Source of the DNA: an uncultured Roseburia sp.
Lineage (GTDB): Bacteria > Bacillota > Clostridia > Lachnospirales > Lachnospiraceae
DNA: 55,690 nucleotides
Reading direction: 5' to 3'
Assembly: GCA_947088675.1 (NCBI GenBank)
Contig: CAMUHN010000014.1
Coordinates: forward strand, 1 to 55,690
Shown: positions 25,955 to 36,804 of the stretch, piece by piece
Layout: every line of letters starts with the position of its first letter
How positions within the stretch are numbered: the stretch's first letter is position 1
Notes under the pieces: model-generated
The model's input: the letters and a program-made list of their open reading frames with translations, nothing else
The model's database searches: none
What the model was told of the DNA's origin: nothing
Program-made: the position numbers and the translations under genes

Positions 25955-27460
25955 TTATTTCTGTGAAAGGATACCATCAGCCAGCCAACCGGCATTGAAT
26001 TCTCCTGCTGCAATCACGTCCCATGTTTTTCTGTTTTCCTGCCAATCGGCCGATTCCACCAGATCTTTTAACGCACAAAACGCAGAATTCCCCATAGCGT
26101 ACAAACGACAGTACGGTTTGATCTGCATTTTGCTCTCCCTCGCCAAAGAAAAAAATTCCTCCACCCCGGACCCCGAAAAAAACGCAATCTTATTCAAGCT
26201 GTCCGCCTGCTCAAAACAGGATGCCCGGACGCCTCTTACATCATAGACCGGAACCACTGTATACGGAATTTCAGATGCGGCAAGCGTCCCCGTCAAAGTT
26301 TCACAGCTTCTCATAGCGGCCGGAAATAAAATCTTTCTGGAAGAGCAGGTTTTTGCAAATTCCCGGAGAAAGGAAACCCGGTCGGCATGTTCCGGTATAA
26401 AATCCGCATGTATCCCATGTATGCGCAGCGCCTGCCCTGTCCCTTCCCCGATCACCGCAAACCGAAGACGGGACAGCGTCCTGATATCCAGGCCGCTTTC
26501 CGTAAAAGCTTCAAAAAAAAGCGCAACAGCCGGTCTGCTGGCAAAAAATACCCAGTCATATTCCGCAATTCGGCCCATTTCTTTCATGAGCTGCTGATAT
26601 CCGGGCAGCTTTACGGTCTTAAGCTCGGATAAAGCGATCGCGCTTCCTCCGGCCGATTCAATTGCATTTCCGACTTTTTGATTGGTCTCTGCCGTACCGG
26701 TCAGGCCGACAGGCATCTCACGTTTCTTTTGTGAAACGCCAAAGGAAAAACCAGCCGTCTCCCCGATTACGATTACTGCAGGAGATGTAAGCTTTTCCTC
26801 CTTTGCTTTCGCAGCAATTTCGGAAAGCGTCCCCCGCACCGTGCGCGCCCGCAATGTTGCGCCGTCAGATATAACCGCAGCCGGCGTCTGTTTGCTTTTT
26901 CCGTACAGCATCAGCTGTTCCGCTATGATTTTAAGGTTTGCCATTCCCATCAGAAAAATCAGTGTGCCGTCTAATTTTGCATAGAGATCAAACGGCGCCT
27001 CGCGCAGCTCGCCGTTTTCTCTGCAATGTCCTGCGATCACATGAAAGCTGCTGCTTACCCCTCTGTGCGTCGCCGGAATGCCCGCCAGTTCCGGAACGGC
27101 TATCGCGGATGTTACGCCCGGTATTACCTCCACCGGAATCTGCTGCGCTAAAAGCGATTGTGCCTCCTCGCCGCCGCGGCCAAATACAAATGCGTCGCCG
27201 CCTTTTAAGCGCACCACTTTCTTATACTGTTTCGCATATTCTGCCAGAATACGGTTGATCTCTTCCTGTTTTACCGCATGGCCGGCCGGATCTTTGCCGA
27301 CACAGACAAAACGCGTGCCCGGTTTTGCGAAAGACAACAATTCTTCTGCAATCAGCCTGTCATAGACAATGACGTCGCAGTCTCTGATCTGCTCCAGTCC
27401 TTTTACCGTGATCAGGGATGCGTCCCCCGGCCCGGCGCCGACTAAGATTACTTTCCCCAT
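25955..27460 (-). CDS. cobA-hemD: Fused uroporphyrinogen-III C-methyltransferase / uroporphyrinogen-III synthase
   Basis: A 501-residue bifunctional enzyme. Residues 1-240 are the SAM-dependent methyltransferase (CobA/SUMT): VGAGPGDASLITVKGLE, CDVIVYDRL, VRLKGGDAFVFGRGGEE and PGVTSAIAVPELAGIPATHRG. Residues about 250-500 are a HemD-type synthase (ALSELKTVKLPGYQ, WVFFASRPAVALFFEAF, FAVIGEGTGQAL, IAFFSGSGVEEFFSLA). Together they convert hydroxymethylbilane to precorrin-2, committing the pathway to siroheme, cobalamin or F430-like products rather than protoheme. The start overlaps the hemC stop by 13 bases, indicating coupled translation. Confidence 0.93.
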   Translation of the reverse strand: MGKVILVGAGPGDASLITVKGLEQIRDCDVIVYDRLIAEELLSFAKPGTRFVCVGKDPAGHAVKQEEINRILAEYAKQYKKVVRLKGGDAFVFGRGGEEAQSLLAQQIPVEVIPGVTSAIAVPELAGIPATHRGVSSSFHVIAGHCRENGELREAPFDLYAKLDGTLIFLMGMANLKIIAEQLMLYGKSKQTPAAVISDGATLRARTVRGTLSEIAAKAKEEKLTSPAVIVIGETAGFSFGVSQKKREMPVGLTGTAETNQKVGNAIESAGGSAIALSELKTVKLPGYQQLMKEMGRIAEYDWVFFASRPAVALFFEAFTESGLDIRTLSRLRFAVIGEGTGQALRIHGIHADFIPEHADRVSFLREFAKTCSSRKILFPAAMRSCETLTGTLAASEIPYTVVPVYDVRGVRASCFEQADSLNKIAFFSGSGVEEFFSLARESKMQIKPYCRLYAMGNSAFCALKDLVESADWQENRKTWDVIAAGEFNAGWLADGILSQK

Positions 27461-28413
27461 ACAGCCTCCCTGTCCGCAAGCGGCGCCGTCTTTCTTTTTT
27501 TTATTATCTCGCCGAAAACCTCCTGCATCAGCATCACTTCAATCTGAGATCGTTTCTTTTTCCTGCCCCCTGTGCTTTTTGACATCAGGCAGCCGGGCAT
27601 AGAAAGCCCCGTCTTTGGCATTTTTCCTGTGATATCGGATTCGGAAAACTCTGTTATTTTTGCAAAGACGCCGACCGCTTCATGGCAGCCCGCCGAAAGC
27701 TTCCTTAGAATATTTCGTTCCGTATCCAGTTCCAGCGCCGTTTTTTCGTCTGTAATTTCACACAGAAAACGCTGGTCGTCCTGCGCGCGCCCTTCCACGG
27801 CAATGATTGCCTGTCCGCCGGCCGGCACCATATCCCACAGATCAAAAAAGGTATAACACAGATCTTCCTCCTGCAGCAGGTGAAGGCGGGAGAGTCCCGC
27901 AGCCGCAAGAAGAATGCCGTCATACTGTCCCTCCCTTAATTTATGCAGGCGCGTTGTCACATTTCCGCGCAGGCCGCAAAACGCAGCATTCGGATACAGT
28001 TTTGCGAACTGCGCTACCCGGCGGCTGCTTCCGGAACCGATCACTGCGCTTTTTGCAGATGCCATATCAAATCCCCGTTTTGTCACCAGCACATCCCTGG
28101 CGTCCCCGCGTTCTAATACACTTACAATAGCAAGCCCCCCGCGCAGTTCCATCGGCATATCCTTTGCGGAATGCACGGCATAATCAATTGTCCCGTCCTG
28201 GATCGCCTTCTCTAGTTCCGTGATAAATACGCCTTTGCCGCCAAACTCCGAAAGCGGCCTGTCTAAAATACGGTCTCCTGTCGTCTTTAGAATTACCTTT
28301 TCACATTCTATCGCCGGATATTTTTTCTTCACTGCCGCAATCCACAGATCTGTCTGCGCCTGTGCAAGACGACTCCCCCTCGTGCCAATTCTGATCTTTT
28401 TCGGTATCTGCAA
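27448..28413 (-). CDS. hemC: Hydroxymethylbilane synthase (porphobilinogen deaminase)
   Basis: The enzyme polymerises four porphobilinogens. IRIGTRGSRLAQAQT is the conserved N-terminus, SAKDMPM and IGSGSSRRVAQF follow, LAAAGLSRL is the late core, and LSAGCHEAVGVF holds the cofactor-binding Cys. No ATG stands directly before the conserved start: TTG at 28413 gives a normal N-terminus and is my choice; ATG at 28461 adds 16 basic residues and lacks a clear ribosome site. Either way the gene begins inside the previous gene. The C-terminus has an extra basic tail of about 60 residues beyond the usual end. Confidence 0.88.
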   Translation of the reverse strand: MQIPKKIRIGTRGSRLAQAQTDLWIAAVKKKYPAIECEKVILKTTGDRILDRPLSEFGGKGVFITELEKAIQDGTIDYAVHSAKDMPMELRGGLAIVSVLERGDARDVLVTKRGFDMASAKSAVIGSGSSRRVAQFAKLYPNAAFCGLRGNVTTRLHKLREGQYDGILLAAAGLSRLHLLQEEDLCYTFFDLWDMVPAGGQAIIAVEGRAQDDQRFLCEITDEKTALELDTERNILRKLSAGCHEAVGVFAKITEFSESDITGKMPKTGLSMPGCLMSKSTGGRKKKRSQIEVMLMQEVFGEIIKKRKTAPLADREAVWGK

Positions 28414-29014
28414 AATAATCCGCCACTTCCTTTTCCGTAATCTCTTCCCCTGCAAGGACATCCGTAAGCATTTTATGAAAAATCCGCTTTCTCTGTTCCC
28501 GGTCATCTACACTGCGCAAAACCTCTTCCCGGTACATTCCCATTATCTTAGCTGCTCTCCCATAAGAATCAGGTACTGCCGCTTCCAGTTTTCTCCGGAT
28601 AAAAGCTGCCAGCGCCGGACTGCTGCCGCCTGTTGAGACAGATACCACTACCTCGCCCTTTCGAATCAATGCGGGAAAATAAAATGTACACAGCTCTTTG
28701 TCATCCACAACGTTTACCGGTATCTTTTGCTTTTTACAGAGTTCTGAAACATGCCGGTTTACTTCTCTTTGACTGGACGCCGCTACCACAGCCGCGGCGC
28801 CGTCGATATCATGCTCACAAAATTCCCGCTGAATCAGAGTGATTTTTCCTGCATTTTTCCACTGTGTCATCCGAGTGCAGACTTCGGGGGCAATTACCGT
28901 TATCGCTGCGCCAAATTCCAATAACTGCCCGACTTTTCCGGCAGCAATGCTCCCGCCGCCGACAACAACGCAATGTTTTCTTTCCATATTAATATAAAGT
29001 GGAAAATATGCCAT
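28301..29014 (-). CDS. Precorrin-2 dehydrogenase / siroheme synthase domain protein
   Basis: A 237-residue NAD-dependent enzyme (Met8p/CysG N-terminal type) that makes sirohydrochlorin from precorrin-2 and may insert iron. YFPLYINMERKHCVVVGGGSIAAGKVGQLL is the Rossmann start (bases near 29010-28925) and VSVSTGGSSPALAAFIRRKL is the conserved family motif. ATG at 29014 is preferred: GGGGGAG lies 5 bases upstream. The normal domain seems to end near ADYFADTEKD; the final ~30 residues are read through the conserved start of hemC in another frame, which suggests that an ancestral stop has been lost. The tetrapyrrole operon begins here; hemA and hemB are not in the window. Confidence 0.88.
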   Translation of the reverse strand: MAYFPLYINMERKHCVVVGGGSIAAGKVGQLLEFGAAITVIAPEVCTRMTQWKNAGKITLIQREFCEHDIDGAAAVVAASSQREVNRHVSELCKKQKIPVNVVDDKELCTFYFPALIRKGEVVVSVSTGGSSPALAAFIRRKLEAAVPDSYGRAAKIMGMYREEVLRSVDDREQRKRIFHKMLTDVLAGEEITEKEVADYFADTEKDQNWHEGESSCTGADRSVDCGSEEKISGDRM

Positions 29015-29086
29015 TTTTCTCCCCCGCTCCAAACCCATACCTTTTCTTCTCCAGGCAGGCGTTTATTAAAAATCCCGCGAACAAAT

Positions 29087-30727
29087 TTATTTTATCATTG
29101 GATAGCGGCCGTGTAAAGACAATCCTCCAAACATATTTCCGTCTATATTTCCTTTTCCTCCTGCGCCGTCATTGCCCTGAACGCCCATGGCCTTAAGATC
29201 AACGGAAGAAGCATCCACAAGAAGCGTATTTTCGTCTCTTTCCCCGTCAGAGGGCGGGATTTCACCTTTTAACTGCTTTGCCACACTTTCAGAGCGAAGC
29301 AGTACAAAAGCTTTCAACAGATCAGCCGCAGTTACAAATTCTTCATAACTGTAAAATGCCGTCGCGTCTTTTTTCACATACGGTGCAATCAGCGCTGTTA
29401 TTTTTGACAGCGTCGCTGTAAACTGTCCGCTGTCCACATAGTCCTCCACGATCTGCTTCAGATAATCGTGATAAATCTTCCTGTATTCCCCGTTCTCCAT
29501 CAGCTTTCCAAACAGGGGCCGCTCCTTTAACAATCCCTCTTCCATCGGCGTATCAATGGCGCCATTGACCGCCTCGTCAGCATCCCTGCACTGAAAACCT
29601 CCAAATGCCAGATTTAAATCCCAGGGCAATATCGTAAGCTTCCCGTTATCCTCGTAGAGATAATAGTTGTGTTTTAAATTGCTGTAATAACTGTCCAGAT
29701 TGACAAGAAATGTCTGTGCTGCAAAATAGCGGAGACATGCGTCTACATCAATATATTTTTCCAGTTCCTGTGCATCGGATAACTTTTTTAACGCAGTTAT
29801 GACACGTTTCTTATCCCCGTCGGTCGGATCAAACACGGCGTTGTCGAAAATATCGCGATAGCTGCTGATTGCGTCGTCCGTATACTTAAGATCGGCTCCG
29901 CCGCCAGACGCCCGCTCAAAATCTCTTACACCCCCTCCAAAATTTTGCTCCGGCGGCTGCGTTCTGTTTTCTCTTCCGAGAGGCTTCTCAAACGGCTCCT
30001 CCGCCGGCTCGAAAGCTTTCTGCATTTCTGCTTCTCCCGGCGTCTTAATCATACCGCCGTCAACAGGCGGCATTTTATCCCTCCCGCCGCCTCCAAACGA
30101 TACGCTCTCCGGTTTATACAGCTGCCCGCTTCCGGCATACGCTCTCTGTAAAAAAGAATCCTCCACTGCTTCTAACGCCAGATAACAGCCAAAATCCTCA
30201 CCGTTAATCCGGATATCTGCAAATGCATAGTACGGAACTGTTACCCCGATTGCACGAAAAATATCATATGCCATATACTCTTTGACATAGGTGGCGTCAC
30301 AAAACAGGTTATTAAGTACAAGTTTATCCAGTCCGTTCCATGTCTTATTGCTGTCATAGTGATCAAACTCCAGCTTAAAACTGTACCGGTTCGAATCGCC
30401 GGATGCCACCTGGCTTAAACTTGTATTTCCTTTTGTGCGCACCGCAAGATCTGTATACAGAGTCCCGTTGATCCGCACATCACACGGCTTATATTCCTCG
30501 TCGAGCGGATTTGCAAGCATATCCTCCCAGTCCTCCACGGCCAGTTCAATGTCCACTTGCAAAATTTCAAACTGGTCAAACATTTCCTCATAAGGCAGTT
30601 TTGCCTGATACGACATTGCTTTTACAAACTTCTCATTCCCTGAGAGATAATACAACAGCGACGCAAATAAAACTGCTGCGGCCAGTGTAACCGCAACTAT
30701 CATATTAAAATATTTACTGGTACTCAT
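29087..30727 (-). CDS. CotH-like kinase, membrane-anchored
   Basis: A 546-residue protein with an N-terminal anchor (about residues 9-28) and a large extracytoplasmic domain. CotH features: AVRTKGNTSL (about 97-106), YSFKLEFDHYD, NGLDKLVLNNLFCDATYVKEYMAYDIFRAIGV, and LTILPWDLNLAFGGF, where the metal-binding Asp is kept; many relatives read PWDLD, so the second acidic residue is Asn here. A low-complexity Gly/Pro/Glu insert lies at about 225-290, and the tail is Gly-rich. CotH of Bacillus is an atypical protein kinase acting on spore coat proteins. The ATG overlaps the DUF4956 stop by 4 bases, so translation is coupled. Target unknown. Confidence 0.85.
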   Translation of the reverse strand: MSTSKYFNMIVAVTLAAAVLFASLLYYLSGNEKFVKAMSYQAKLPYEEMFDQFEILQVDIELAVEDWEDMLANPLDEEYKPCDVRINGTLYTDLAVRTKGNTSLSQVASGDSNRYSFKLEFDHYDSNKTWNGLDKLVLNNLFCDATYVKEYMAYDIFRAIGVTVPYYAFADIRINGEDFGCYLALEAVEDSFLQRAYAGSGQLYKPESVSFGGGGRDKMPPVDGGMIKTPGEAEMQKAFEPAEEPFEKPLGRENRTQPPEQNFGGGVRDFERASGGGADLKYTDDAISSYRDIFDNAVFDPTDGDKKRVITALKKLSDAQELEKYIDVDACLRYFAAQTFLVNLDSYYSNLKHNYYLYEDNGKLTILPWDLNLAFGGFQCRDADEAVNGAIDTPMEEGLLKERPLFGKLMENGEYRKIYHDYLKQIVEDYVDSGQFTATLSKITALIAPYVKKDATAFYSYEEFVTAADLLKAFVLLRSESVAKQLKGEIPPSDGERDENTLLVDASSVDLKAMGVQGNDGAGGKGNIDGNMFGGLSLHGRYPMIK

Positions 30728-31395
30728 GACATATAATCTCCGTTGTAGCTGACTAACACGGCGCTCACAACACCGGTAAGATCTGAAATCCGGTTGACAA
30801 AGTCACAATCCCCGTTTTTTAAGCGCACCTCATATGTCATTTCAATGGCGCCTTTGGACACGGTTTTTGATTTCAACACCTGTTTTTTCACATTCTGGCG
30901 AAGCAGATCAGATGATTGCCGCTCACCGTCCGTTCCGCTGCAATGAATAATCATAATATAGGGATGGTCGCTTGTTCTGCGATTGACGAAAATCCATAAA
31001 ATAAGACCGATAAACAGGGATCCAAAGACAGCCAGCGGAATTAATCCGGCTCCAAGTACAATGCCGACGGCAATGGCCCAGAATAAAAAAGATATATCCA
31101 TCGGCTCTTTGATCGCCGTCCGAAAGCGCACGATGGAGAGTGCGCCTACCATACCAAGAGAAAGTACGATATTTGAAGTGACCGCAAGTATTACAAGTGT
31201 CGTAATCATTGACATGCTCATCAGAGAAACACCAAAACCGGCAGAATACATGACGCCGTTATATATTTTCTTATACACAAAAAAGATAAACAAGCCAAGT
31301 ACAAAAGAAAGTGTAAGCGCAATTACAAAGTCCATCACGGCAAAATCTGCCGCTTTTTCCAAAAAAGACGATTTAAAAATATCCTGAAACGTCAT
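30724..31395 (-). CDS. DUF4956 membrane protein
   Basis: A 223-residue protein with about four membrane helices in its first half (FVIALTLSFVLGLFIFFVY, SMSMITTLVILAVTSNIVLSLGMVGALSIVRFRT, LFWAIAVGIVLGAGLIPLAVFGSLFIGLILWIFV) and a soluble ferredoxin-like C-terminal domain (YEVRLKNGDCDFVNRISDLTGVVSAVLVSYNGDY). The segment GALSIVRFRTAIKEP, a polar Arg-containing stretch inside the membrane part, is the DUF4956 hallmark. It lies between a VTC-domain gene (12 bases) and the CotH-like gene (4-base overlap); this trio recurs widely in bacteria to my knowledge. A transport or coupling role is inferred. Confidence 0.85.
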   Translation of the reverse strand: MTFQDIFKSSFLEKAADFAVMDFVIALTLSFVLGLFIFFVYKKIYNGVMYSAGFGVSLMSMSMITTLVILAVTSNIVLSLGMVGALSIVRFRTAIKEPMDISFLFWAIAVGIVLGAGLIPLAVFGSLFIGLILWIFVNRRTSDHPYIMIIHCSGTDGERQSSDLLRQNVKKQVLKSKTVSKGAIEMTYEVRLKNGDCDFVNRISDLTGVVSAVLVSYNGDYMS

Positions 31396-31407
31396 ACATA
31401 TCCTCCT

Positions 31408-32088
31408 CTATCCGTACATCCTGCACGCTGCATATTTGCTGAACGCCGTCGAAGAACGTCCCGGCACACGCACTGCTTTTTCCATAATCTCCGGCAAAAA
31501 TGCGTCATATTTAACCTCCATAATGATCACGCCGCACTCTGTCGGCGCAGTTCCATAATTTTCTGTAAACAGACAGTTATGATACAATCCTGTCCTGATC
31601 TCACTGTCAAATGTAATGCGTACATTTCCGGGCGCATACACATACGGCTCGCGCCGGTACTCAACCAATACTTTCGGTTTTAATAGCTGATAATGCATTT
31701 TTGCATACAGCTCCTGCAAAATCCGGTTATTTTTTAACCGCAAACAGCTTATTTCACCGTTACAGATGGAAGAAACCTCCTCCTTTGTCAAAGGCGCAGC
31801 CTGTTTCTCACAGAGACCATGCCGTTTGCTTTTTTTCTCAAGCCTGATATATTCCGTATTGTCGTTATAATACCGAATCCGGAACTTCTCCCTGTTTTCC
31901 ACTCCGTTTACTTTCTCACAAAGCGCTTTGTCATACAGATTGTCGAAGTACAGGCTATGTACCAGATACGTTCCGTCCGCACCCGCATGCGCGTCAGATT
32001 TCGCCAAAACGCGAAGTCTGCTCCTGATCACCAGATAATCTTCATAATTAATCCGATGCTTGTATTCATGTCTCATATACCATTCCAT
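31408..32088 (-). CDS. VTC-domain (polyphosphate polymerase-like) protein
   Basis: A 226-residue soluble protein of the VTC/triphosphate-tunnel class, the fold of the yeast Vtc4 polyphosphate polymerase. Tunnel-type residues are spread as expected: HEYKHRI near the start, REKFRIRYYN (Arg-x-Arg), IRLEKKSKRHG (Glu-x-Lys), KVLVEYRREPYVY, NVRITFDSEIRTG and the closing IIMEVKYDAFLP (Glu-x-Lys). There is no SPX domain or membrane helix. GGAAGGAGAGG precedes ATG 32088; ATG at 32076 is possible. First gene of the trio. Whether it makes polyphosphate or another product is unknown; the preserved tunnel residues argue that it is catalytic. Confidence 0.85.
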   Translation of the reverse strand: MEWYMRHEYKHRINYEDYLVIRSRLRVLAKSDAHAGADGTYLVHSLYFDNLYDKALCEKVNGVENREKFRIRYYNDNTEYIRLEKKSKRHGLCEKQAAPLTKEEVSSICNGEISCLRLKNNRILQELYAKMHYQLLKPKVLVEYRREPYVYAPGNVRITFDSEIRTGLYHNCLFTENYGTAPTECGVIIMEVKYDAFLPEIMEKAVRVPGRSSTAFSKYAACRMYG

Positions 32089-34969: not shown

Positions 34970-36121
34970 TTATTTCTCTTTGTAAAGTTCTACCACAGGC
35001 AGCATAACAACCGTCTCAAGACCCTCCCTGCAGTTGGAAAGCTCTATAAAGCCGCCCATCTGCTGCACAATATATTTTACAATATAAAGGCCAAGTCCTG
35101 ATCCCTGCTCGTCTGCACAGTTTTTTCCACGATAGAATTTATCAAAAATAAACGGAATGTCCTCATCCGCGACCCCTCTTCCGTAATCGCGAAAAGAAAT
35201 CGAAACCGTATCCTCCTGGCGCACTACTTTAATATCAATCTTCGTTTTTGCATATTTTCTGGAATTGTTAATCAGATTCTCACAGACCTGCAGCAGTCTG
35301 TTTGGGTCTGCATTCACCGGTATTTCCTCATCCGGCAGTAAAATCCGTACGTCGTCCCGTCCTGCGGATATCTCGGCCACGTCGTTTCTCATAAATGCGC
35401 AGAGTCCAAACTGTTTCGTCTGAATTTTTAATTTGTCCAAATCCGAAACAGAATGCAAAAACAAATCGTCTGTCAGTCTGGCTACCTCATCACATTTCTT
35501 CAGAATCACGGCGATATAGCGCTGCCTGCGCCCGGCAGTGCAGTCCAGATTTGCCTCAAGTCCTTCCGCATAAGCGCGGATTGAGGCAATCGGCGTCTTA
35601 ATATCATGCGAGAGCGTCGCAATAACCGTTTTATTGTTTTCAATCGCTTCCCTCTCGCCGGAGCGCGCTTTCGTGATTTCCTGTCTCATACTGTCAAATG
35701 CCCAGGTAAATTCTCCAAAATAATTGGAGCGCTCATAGGTAAGAGCAATATCAAAATTTCCCTGCGCGATCTGGTTCACATACGATTTCATCCGTTCAAA
35801 CGGGCCAAAGATCGCATGATCAACATAACAAAGAACAACGATCATATAAACGACGCAGATCACGGAAATCAAAATATAATGCGCATCAAAACTTTCCGCT
35901 TCTGAAAAAGACCGCAGGCTCTCCTGCAGTCTTTCGGATTTTAATTGCATTGTCTTCATATCGCCGCTTCTGGCAAGCTGTTCCAGTTCATTGACAGCTA
36001 AAATCTGTTTCTCCGTGATGTCCTGCGTATTTTTTCCGACTCTCAACAGCCCGCACAATACGGCTGTCATCAGAATGACAAAAGAAAACAATACAGAAAC
36101 TTTCAACAGCCTTTTTCTCAT
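34970..36121 (-). CDS. Two-component sensor histidine kinase
   Basis: A 383-residue membrane kinase. Helices at about 7-27 and 82-102 flank a short extracytoplasmic loop of about 55 residues. HAMP-like linker about 103-155 (GPFERMKSYVNQIAQGNFD), HisKA with His172 in ATLSHDIKTPIASIRAYAE, N box NLINNSRKYA, and G boxes FRDYGRGV and GSGLGLYIVKYI. The small sensor loop suits intramembrane or envelope-stress sensing. Its ATG overlaps the regulator stop by 4 bases (coupled translation). Cognate partner is the OmpR-type regulator directly upstream. Confidence 0.93.
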   Translation of the reverse strand: MRKRLLKVSVLFSFVILMTAVLCGLLRVGKNTQDITEKQILAVNELEQLARSGDMKTMQLKSERLQESLRSFSEAESFDAHYILISVICVVYMIVVLCYVDHAIFGPFERMKSYVNQIAQGNFDIALTYERSNYFGEFTWAFDSMRQEITKARSGEREAIENNKTVIATLSHDIKTPIASIRAYAEGLEANLDCTAGRRQRYIAVILKKCDEVARLTDDLFLHSVSDLDKLKIQTKQFGLCAFMRNDVAEISAGRDDVRILLPDEEIPVNADPNRLLQVCENLINNSRKYAKTKIDIKVVRQEDTVSISFRDYGRGVADEDIPFIFDKFYRGKNCADEQGSGLGLYIVKYIVQQMGGFIELSNCREGLETVVMLPVVELYKEK

Positions 36122-36804
36122 TGCGGCGCCTCCAACATATATCCCACTTTAAAAACGGTTTTGATAAACTGCGGGCTGGCCGGATTATCCTCCAGCTTTT
36201 CCCGCAGCCATCTGATATGTACGGTCAGCGTCGACGGTTCCACCAGAGAAAAAGCCCCCCATACTTCCGCCAGAAGTTTCTCTTTTGCAACTGCCGTATT
36301 TCGATACCGGCACAGACAGGCGAGCAGATCAAATTCACGCAGAGAAAGCGATATAACCTGACCGCCTTTCTCTGCCGTTCTTGCCGTAATATTTACTCTG
36401 ACATCTCCAAATGCAACGATCTGCTCCTCCCCGCCAAATCCATAAGTACGGCGCAGCAGCGCATTGACCCGGGAAAGCAGCTCTTTCATGGAATAAGGTT
36501 TCGGCAGATAATCGTCCCCGCCCAGATCAAATCCTGTGATACGGTCATTTTCTCCTGATCTTGCGCTTGCAAAAATCACCGGCACCGTCGATACTTTCCT
36601 CAACTCCCGACACAGTTCAAATCCGGTACCGTCCGGCAGATTGATGTCCAGTAAAATCAAATGAAACGTCTTTTCCGACAAAAGCAGGAAAGCTCCTGCA
36701 CTGTCTGCCACACATTCGACATGATAGCCGTAACTCTCCAGCAGATCCGACAGAATCAGCGACAGATCTGCATCATCATCAATGATTAATATATTTTTTT
36801 GCAT
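36118..36804 (-). CDS. OmpR/PhoB-family response regulator
   Basis: A 228-residue regulator. The receiver domain has acidic pocket DDD (9-11), phospho-acceptor Asp53 in LILLDINLPDGTG, Ser/Thr switch in FASARSGENDR and Lys in YLPKPYS. The C-terminal winged helix (about 130-225) has LREFDLLACLCRYRNTAVAKEKLL, VEPSTLTVHIRWLREKLE and the wing FIKTVFKVGYML. Partner of the adjacent kinase; target genes unknown, though the lipoprotein 22 bases upstream is a natural candidate. Confidence 0.94.
   Translation of the reverse strand: MQKNILIIDDDADLSLILSDLLESYGYHVECVADSAGAFLLLSEKTFHLILLDINLPDGTGFELCRELRKVSTVPVIFASARSGENDRITGFDLGGDDYLPKPYSMKELLSRVNALLRRTYGFGGEEQIVAFGDVRVNITARTAEKGGQVISLSLREFDLLACLCRYRNTAVAKEKLLAEVWGAFSLVEPSTLTVHIRWLREKLEDNPASPQFIKTVFKVGYMLEAPQ

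Follow-up and report, generated by a model that had tools for sequence, protein, structure and literature searches.

The locus described here lies on a contig of 55,690 bases (C14 of a draft assembly of 122 contigs from an uncultured Roseburia sp.), which as a whole is called the window below. Three consecutive genes on its minus strand encode, in this order, a VTC-domain (triphosphate-tunnel) protein of 226 residues (31408..32088), a DUF4956 membrane protein of 223 residues (30724..31395) and a CotH-family kinase-like protein of 546 residues (29087..30727). Only 12 bases separate the first two genes and the last two overlap by 4 bases; with the family of each confirmed by Pfam profile search, the tight three-gene operon proposed in an earlier sequence-only reading of this DNA stands. 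A purine-rich stretch resembling a ribosome-binding site precedes the VTC start. Promoter-like sites are no commoner than in shuffled sequence (7 found, 8.2 expected), and none of the 8 terminator-like sites (3.9 expected from shuffling, standard deviation 2.4) falls at the end of CotH. The same-strand run continues past CotH, with a siroheme-type gene (PF13241) starting 48 bases on and more genes after it. Siroheme/haem-type genes on the same strand occupy 25955-29038, directly downstream of the trio; this assignment has a Pfam basis for 28301-29038, and the names HemC-like and uroporphyrinogen methylase/synthase-like, applied to genes within the interval, come from reading the sequence alone.

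The VTC protein matches PF09359 over residues 6-222 (E 2.2e-37; 129.3 bits against a curated cut-off of 23), and a profile of 44 VTC relatives finds yeast Vtc4 (3g3q) at E 3.7e-21. All ten Vtc4 residues mapped through the profile alignment are identical in the bacterial protein. Among the 141 relatives with 200 residues or more, each of the ten is found in 140 or in all 141. The tunnel positions kept include Vtc4 K200, R264, R266, K281, R361, R373, E426 and K458. Of these, R264, R266 and E426 are inactivating sites in Vtc4 (PMC9911596; papers are cited here by PubMed Central number, for particular passages). Retention of the tunnel Arg, Lys and Glu residues, as claimed from the sequence, is thus borne out by the alignment, which gives no sign of a tunnel stripped of its catalytic basic residues. 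Eukaryote-type VTC chains combine an SPX domain with membrane helices of their own. The 226-residue protein is not of this type: it has no SPX or membrane domain match, VTC being its only Pfam match at E up to 0.1. It is a predicted polyphosphate polymerase. The same genome also encodes PPK1 (PF02503, E 4.2e-69; contig C4, 87884-88450), so the cell has a candidate polyphosphate maker besides the VTC module, and a second one would call for a location or task of its own.

In the structural model of the DUF4956 protein, an amphipathic-looking helix (residues 4-15) is followed by helices at 20-44, 52-71, 74-93, 98-115 and 119-137, and by a ferredoxin-like tail (145-216). The signature LGMVGALSIVRFR, at residues 80-92 (31120..31158, minus strand), includes R90 and R92. 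Each of these arginines is present in 145 of 146 relatives and G84 in all 146, a set that includes one evidently MgtC-type protein (L112:11304-12002, E 2.1e-36), which also entered the alignment used for the model (A4). In a diverse alignment (A2), the invariant positions G84, R90, R92 and G111 all lie in the membrane part. Fold comparison with VIA-align, which covered mainly the tail, identifies that tail as ferredoxin/ACT-like, and the Arg-bearing membrane segment and ferredoxin-like tail expected of this protein are both upheld. Membrane helices followed by a C-terminal domain of this fold make up the architecture of the MgtC/SapB family, whose score cut-offs the protein does not reach (NCBIfam MgtC/SapB, E 8.1e-6 and 25.6 bits against 214; Pfam MgtC, 11.8 bits against 31.4). 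MgtC matches at E up to 10 recur in 57 of the 69 members of A4. DUF4956 is a remote MgtC/SapB relative. A Foldseek search of viral structures gave two matches at E <= 0.001, which had TM-scores of 0.24-0.29 to the model and were not used. Among gut records of a phage collection labelled Bacteriophage sp., five match DUF4956 and are unannotated, three of them (MT838813, MT837266 and MT836222) at 35-43% identity.

The CotH protein scores 214.8 bits against PF08757 (E 2.8e-63; cut-off 23.8 bits) and matches the spore-coat CotH kinase 5jd9 at E 6.8e-16. Its D345 and D370 occupy conserved Asp positions, the first present in 97 of 97 relatives and the second in 95, the remaining two being gapped there. 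The catalytic residue of Bacillus subtilis CotH is D228, a presumed counterpart of D345, and the source of ATP for the spore enzyme has been called an unanswered question (PMC7821199). An N-terminal hydrophobic segment for export or anchoring is seen in the hydropathy profile, which agrees with the proposal that this CotH is an exported protein.

The constant pair and the interchangeable third gene

Co-occurrence was counted at E <= 0.001 in two sets, 398 genomes from the phylum of the window and 14 control genomes. DUF4956 is found in 64 of the 398 and VTC in 64, and these are exactly the same genomes; at the level of genera, each family occurs in 48 of 267. The p values attached to these associations ignore kinship between genomes. 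VTC lies within 1.5 kb of DUF4956, always on the same strand, at 72 of 74 places. CotH occurs in 56 genomes, 50 of them pair-bearing, and a second family, Cthe_2159 (PF14262), in 46, of which 38 bear the pair. Nearly all matches exceed curated cut-offs (DUF4956 62/64, VTC 64/64, CotH 55/56, Cthe_2159 44/46). Cthe_2159 is a carbohydrate-binding beta-helix family, members of which bind celluloses and polygalacturonic acid (PMC6712302). All 64 pair genomes have CotH, Cthe_2159 or both (26 CotH only, 14 Cthe_2159 only, 24 both), compared with 14 of the 334 others.

The controls extend this pattern. DUF4956 and VTC are both present in the same 3 of 14, accompanied by Cthe_2159 in Bacteroides ihuae and by CotH in Corynebacterium glutamicum and Methanosarcina acetivorans; among the 11 pair-free controls, CotH occurs in one, Bacillus subtilis. 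Conserved linkage in distant bacteria, which the sequence-only reading had claimed for the trio, is supported, and the survey of DUF4956 neighbourhoods that it proposed did not yield a linkage confined to close relatives. The three genes are indeed linked, but the constant part of the module is VTC-DUF4956, and the module is wider than the trio, since its third slot is interchangeable between CotH and Cthe_2159. The strict pairing, and the presence of CotH or Cthe_2159 in every sampled pair genome, are the new observations here. The former gives DUF4956 a testable role, and the latter is a hint that one core is served by two unrelated exported proteins.

Operon runs were counted at 149 loci with a labelled pair member, drawn from the 74 phylum loci and from 80 related loci (the best 80 of 552, and thus biased toward close relatives). 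The commonest orders are VTC-DUF4956-CotH (73) and VTC-DUF4956-Cthe_2159 (33), and the gene directly after DUF4956 (n = 131) is CotH in 83 cases, Cthe_2159 in 35, VTC in 7 and another gene in 6. When 10 of the 25 unlabelled non-CotH genes in this position were scanned with Pfam, nine proved to be Cthe_2159 and one an S41 peptidase. Within 5 kb of the 74 DUF4956 places, CotH occurs at 41, Cthe_2159 at 24 and both at 1. On a quick DUF4956 tree (144 rows, 128 scored, long branches flagged) the CotH and Cthe_2159 states need 8 changes, so the swap between them probably happened several times; if supported branches only are counted, just 4 changes are required for the Cthe_2159 label. Both kinds of linked protein tend to begin with a hydrophobic segment (87/87 CotH, 27/34 Cthe_2159), and many end in a membrane helix with a basic tail (51/87 and 11/34, respectively). 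The window CotH, which stops 48 bases before the siroheme-type gene, has no such C-terminal anchor (29087-29160). Ten shorter CotH frames of the sample (364-427 residues) all lie more than 30 kb from DUF4956 or on another contig or genome. Treating CotH and Cthe_2159 as one family was rejected, the two having been joined by a single clustering edge of 123 columns that was taken as spurious.

Pel loci and other gene contexts

The name DUF4956 is rare in the PMC literature searched. Streptococci, clostridia and bifidobacteria are described as having CotH, a poly-phosphate polymerase and DUF4956 next to pel genes, the three forming an accessory set of Pel loci in Gram-positive bacteria (PMC7112168). 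Streptococcus intermedius carries such a set, with each gene deleted in turn (PMC12345266). SIR_1592, with four membrane segments and an ACT domain, is taken here as the DUF4956 gene. Aggregation in artificial sputum medium fell by more than half when this gene or the CotH gene SIR_1594 was deleted, and Pel output went up in the first mutant and down in the second; a role in phosphate metabolism was suggested for all three genes (PMC12345266). The sequence-only interpretation is supported in part: its claim that a system of this kind would be without precedent in Clostridia must be given up, given the trio beside pel in clostridia and the S. intermedius deletions. Searches of the open PMC literature did not find VTC-DUF4956 named as a unit or tied to Cthe_2159.

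According to a passage of the S. intermedius study, in which the scope of the survey is unstated, no such three-gene arrangement was found outside the Pel locus (PMC12345266). The trio loci found here away from pel qualify that statement. Pel genes are in reach at only 2 of the 74 phylum loci, so the module is not bound to Pel, and at 0 of the 80 related loci, both counts being lower bounds because contig ends limit the stretches. The pair occurs in 4 of 13 genomes with PelG above its cut-off, which is not a significant association (p 0.14); a further four genomes scored below the cut-off and were left out, G352 among them, which does have the pair. These counts do not support Pel as an obligate partner. 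The window's genome does contain a Gram-positive pel-type cluster on contig C5 (L035:1728-17302), with an epimerase-domain protein in the place of PelD, DUF2194, PelF (DUF3492), PelG, two glycosyltransferases and two DUF4874/DUF4832 proteins. In this draft assembly the trio is on C14 and not contiguous with pelDEADAFG, as a Pel accessory operon would be.

Other neighbours recur. The trio or pair stands beside glycosyltransferase genes on Pseudobutyrivibrio and Planococcus plasmids and at the loci L061, L103 and L047. Response-regulator and histidine-kinase type genes, grouped by BLAST, lie directly upstream of VTC at 43 of the 126 loci with two upstream open reading frames (by sample 21/65, 20/55 and 2/6; for example L060, L145 and L194), 25 pairs being divergent and 18 co-directional. 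The window has a two-component pair of its own (34970-36804), of which only the kinase was checked against Pfam. It is not supported as a partner of the trio: other genes intervene, and it is not clearly closer to VTC-adjacent pairs than to others (mean bits 63.8 against 69.5 for the kinase, 115.9 against 111.1 for the regulator).

Eight plasmid records were compared. The full trio is present on the Planococcus and Pseudobutyrivibrio plasmids, and a Paenibacillus plasmid has VTC-DUF4956-Cthe_2159. On an Enterococcus faecalis plasmid CotH lies two genes beyond the pair, on an Acetoanaerobium plasmid the pair is followed by a phospholipase-D-like gene, and a plasmid of Nonomuraea (Actinomycetota) has VTC and CotH, along with DUF4956 as found by tblastn. 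A Sinorhizobium meliloti plasmid (L195:4272-6642) has a DUF4956-like protein after a caspase-domain protein, and on a Hymenobacter plasmid (L192:4745-8000) DUF4956 lies between a 364-residue protein with no Pfam match and a TolC-family protein.

Possible functions of the module

The trio may carry phosphate chemistry across the cell membrane. The best reading, to which we give a probability of roughly 0.45, is that of a split bacterial VTC: the VTC protein and DUF4956 would act as a single machine at the membrane, in which polyphosphate synthesis is coupled to export and serves an exported partner. In the cytoplasm, the VTC protein would use a nucleoside triphosphate to polymerise polyphosphate. 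DUF4956, being MgtC-like, would dock this enzyme at the membrane and move the chain to the outside, a task that falls to the membrane part in yeast VTC. The product of the third gene would be the exported user: in the window a CotH-type kinase modifying surface or matrix material, elsewhere the Cthe_2159 beta-helix protein in its place. The strict pairing in the phylum, the missing membrane part of the bacterial VTC protein and the Arg-bearing membrane partner all fit this split-VTC reading. If the core exports polyphosphate, it would be a second, outward-directed bacterial polyphosphate route, on which kinases outside the membrane might draw for energy. The boldest form of the reading, close to the trans-membrane phosphorylation system of the sequence-only reading, makes the exported chain the donor for an extracellular CotH kinase (with Cthe_2159 in place of CotH, the chain would instead be bound into a surface matrix). 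It is unlikely, but would account for the action of an extracellular kinase that has no ATP at hand.

Several observations weigh against the split-VTC reading. The S. intermedius strain deleted for the VTC-type gene SIR_1593 still aggregates and makes Pel (PMC12345266); were all three genes in one pathway, this deletion should match the others. Its lack of phenotype counts against polyphosphate as donor, or at least against an essential role in that species. The Hymenobacter and Sinorhizobium plasmids have DUF4956 with no VTC match in the fetched region, so DUF4956 is not solely a VTC partner. CotH (6 genomes) and Cthe_2159 (8 genomes) also occur without the pair, and 10 of the 74 DUF4956 places have neither within 5 kb. 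The Arg pair sits at the end of helix 74-93 in the model, MgtC/SapB proteins are described, in the passage cited, as regulating ATP synthase and phosphate uptake and not as pores (PMC12345266), and no biochemical test of the module was found in the literature examined.

Some of these points would suit a DUF4956 that is an MgtC-like regulator and not a channel, tethering VTC to the membrane and using its ACT-like tail as a sensor of phosphate, ATP or a ligand; VTC would then produce a local signal in the cytoplasm that acts on the envelope or on the exported protein as a control. The MgtC/SapB match, with its recurrence across A4, and the fold of the tail speak for such a protein, the two-component genes upstream of VTC suggest signal control, and a partly independent role for DUF4956 agrees with S. 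intermedius, where the other deletions have phenotypes and that of VTC has none (PMC12345266). We regard this as somewhat unlikely, as conservation in A2 is highest at positions of the membrane part and not of the tail, and strict pairing with one enzyme is not obviously needed by a regulator.

An exopolysaccharide accessory role, in which CotH would phosphorylate a matrix polysaccharide or its machinery and VTC-DUF4956 would supply or regulate phosphate, has the published Pel linkage and mutant effects in its favour (PMC7112168, PMC12345266), along with the glycosyltransferase neighbours and the carbohydrate binding of the alternate partner (PMC6712302). The beneficiary in the window's genome would be the unlinked pel cluster, which carries DUF4832 genes. 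The scarcity of pel genes near the module, lower bounds though these counts are, and the insignificant PelG association make it unlikely, and 43 of the 115 operon runs with the pair and a third gene hold no further gene. Finally, the VTC protein could be a tripolyphosphatase or another triphosphate tunnel metalloenzyme (TTM) and not a polymerase. ExExK motifs mark the TTM hydrolases, and the bacterial proteins do have a glutamate (Glu8) where yeast Vtc4 has Thr198; the first motif position, however, is Arg as in Vtc4 (R6 = R196), and with the K200, E426 and K458 positions kept and VTC the sole Pfam model matched, a hydrolase is improbable.

Comparison with known systems

In the yeast VTC complex, a TTM polymerase is coupled to a channel that has Arg and Lys along its wall (PMC9911596). 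The bacterial module resembles it in having a homologous TTM domain, whose tunnel residues are the same, and in a constant membrane partner with conserved basic residues, the Arg pair. It differs in that the bacterial VTC protein has no SPX or membrane domain match, in that the membrane component is a separate, MgtC-like protein, and in that its product and transport are predictions. DUF4956 in turn shares with MgtC/SapB proteins the membrane helices, the C-terminal ferredoxin/ACT-like domain and a remote sequence match, but scores far below the family cut-offs and has a constant linkage to VTC in the phylum. The trio CotH has the kinase core and both conserved Asp positions of the spore-coat kinase (5jd9), and is longer, with an N-terminal hydrophobic segment.

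As gene sets, the closest counterparts are the Pel accessory genes CotH-PPP-DUF4956-DUF4832 (PPP, poly-phosphate polymerase; PMC7112168) and SIR_1592-1594 (PMC12345266), in which the same three families stand side by side. Unlike these, the window trio is apart from its genome's pel cluster, no pel genes are within reach at 72 of the 74 phylum loci, and Cthe_2159 often fills the third position. In Clostridium perfringens, the locus NELoc-2 is described with genes for VTC, a membrane protein of 222-226 residues, CotH, a 685-residue protein, HEAT and GT2 (PMC2879425), the same layout as at L061 and on the Planococcus plasmid; its membrane protein, annotated there as tubulin/FtsZ, is by our guess from size and place a DUF4956 protein.

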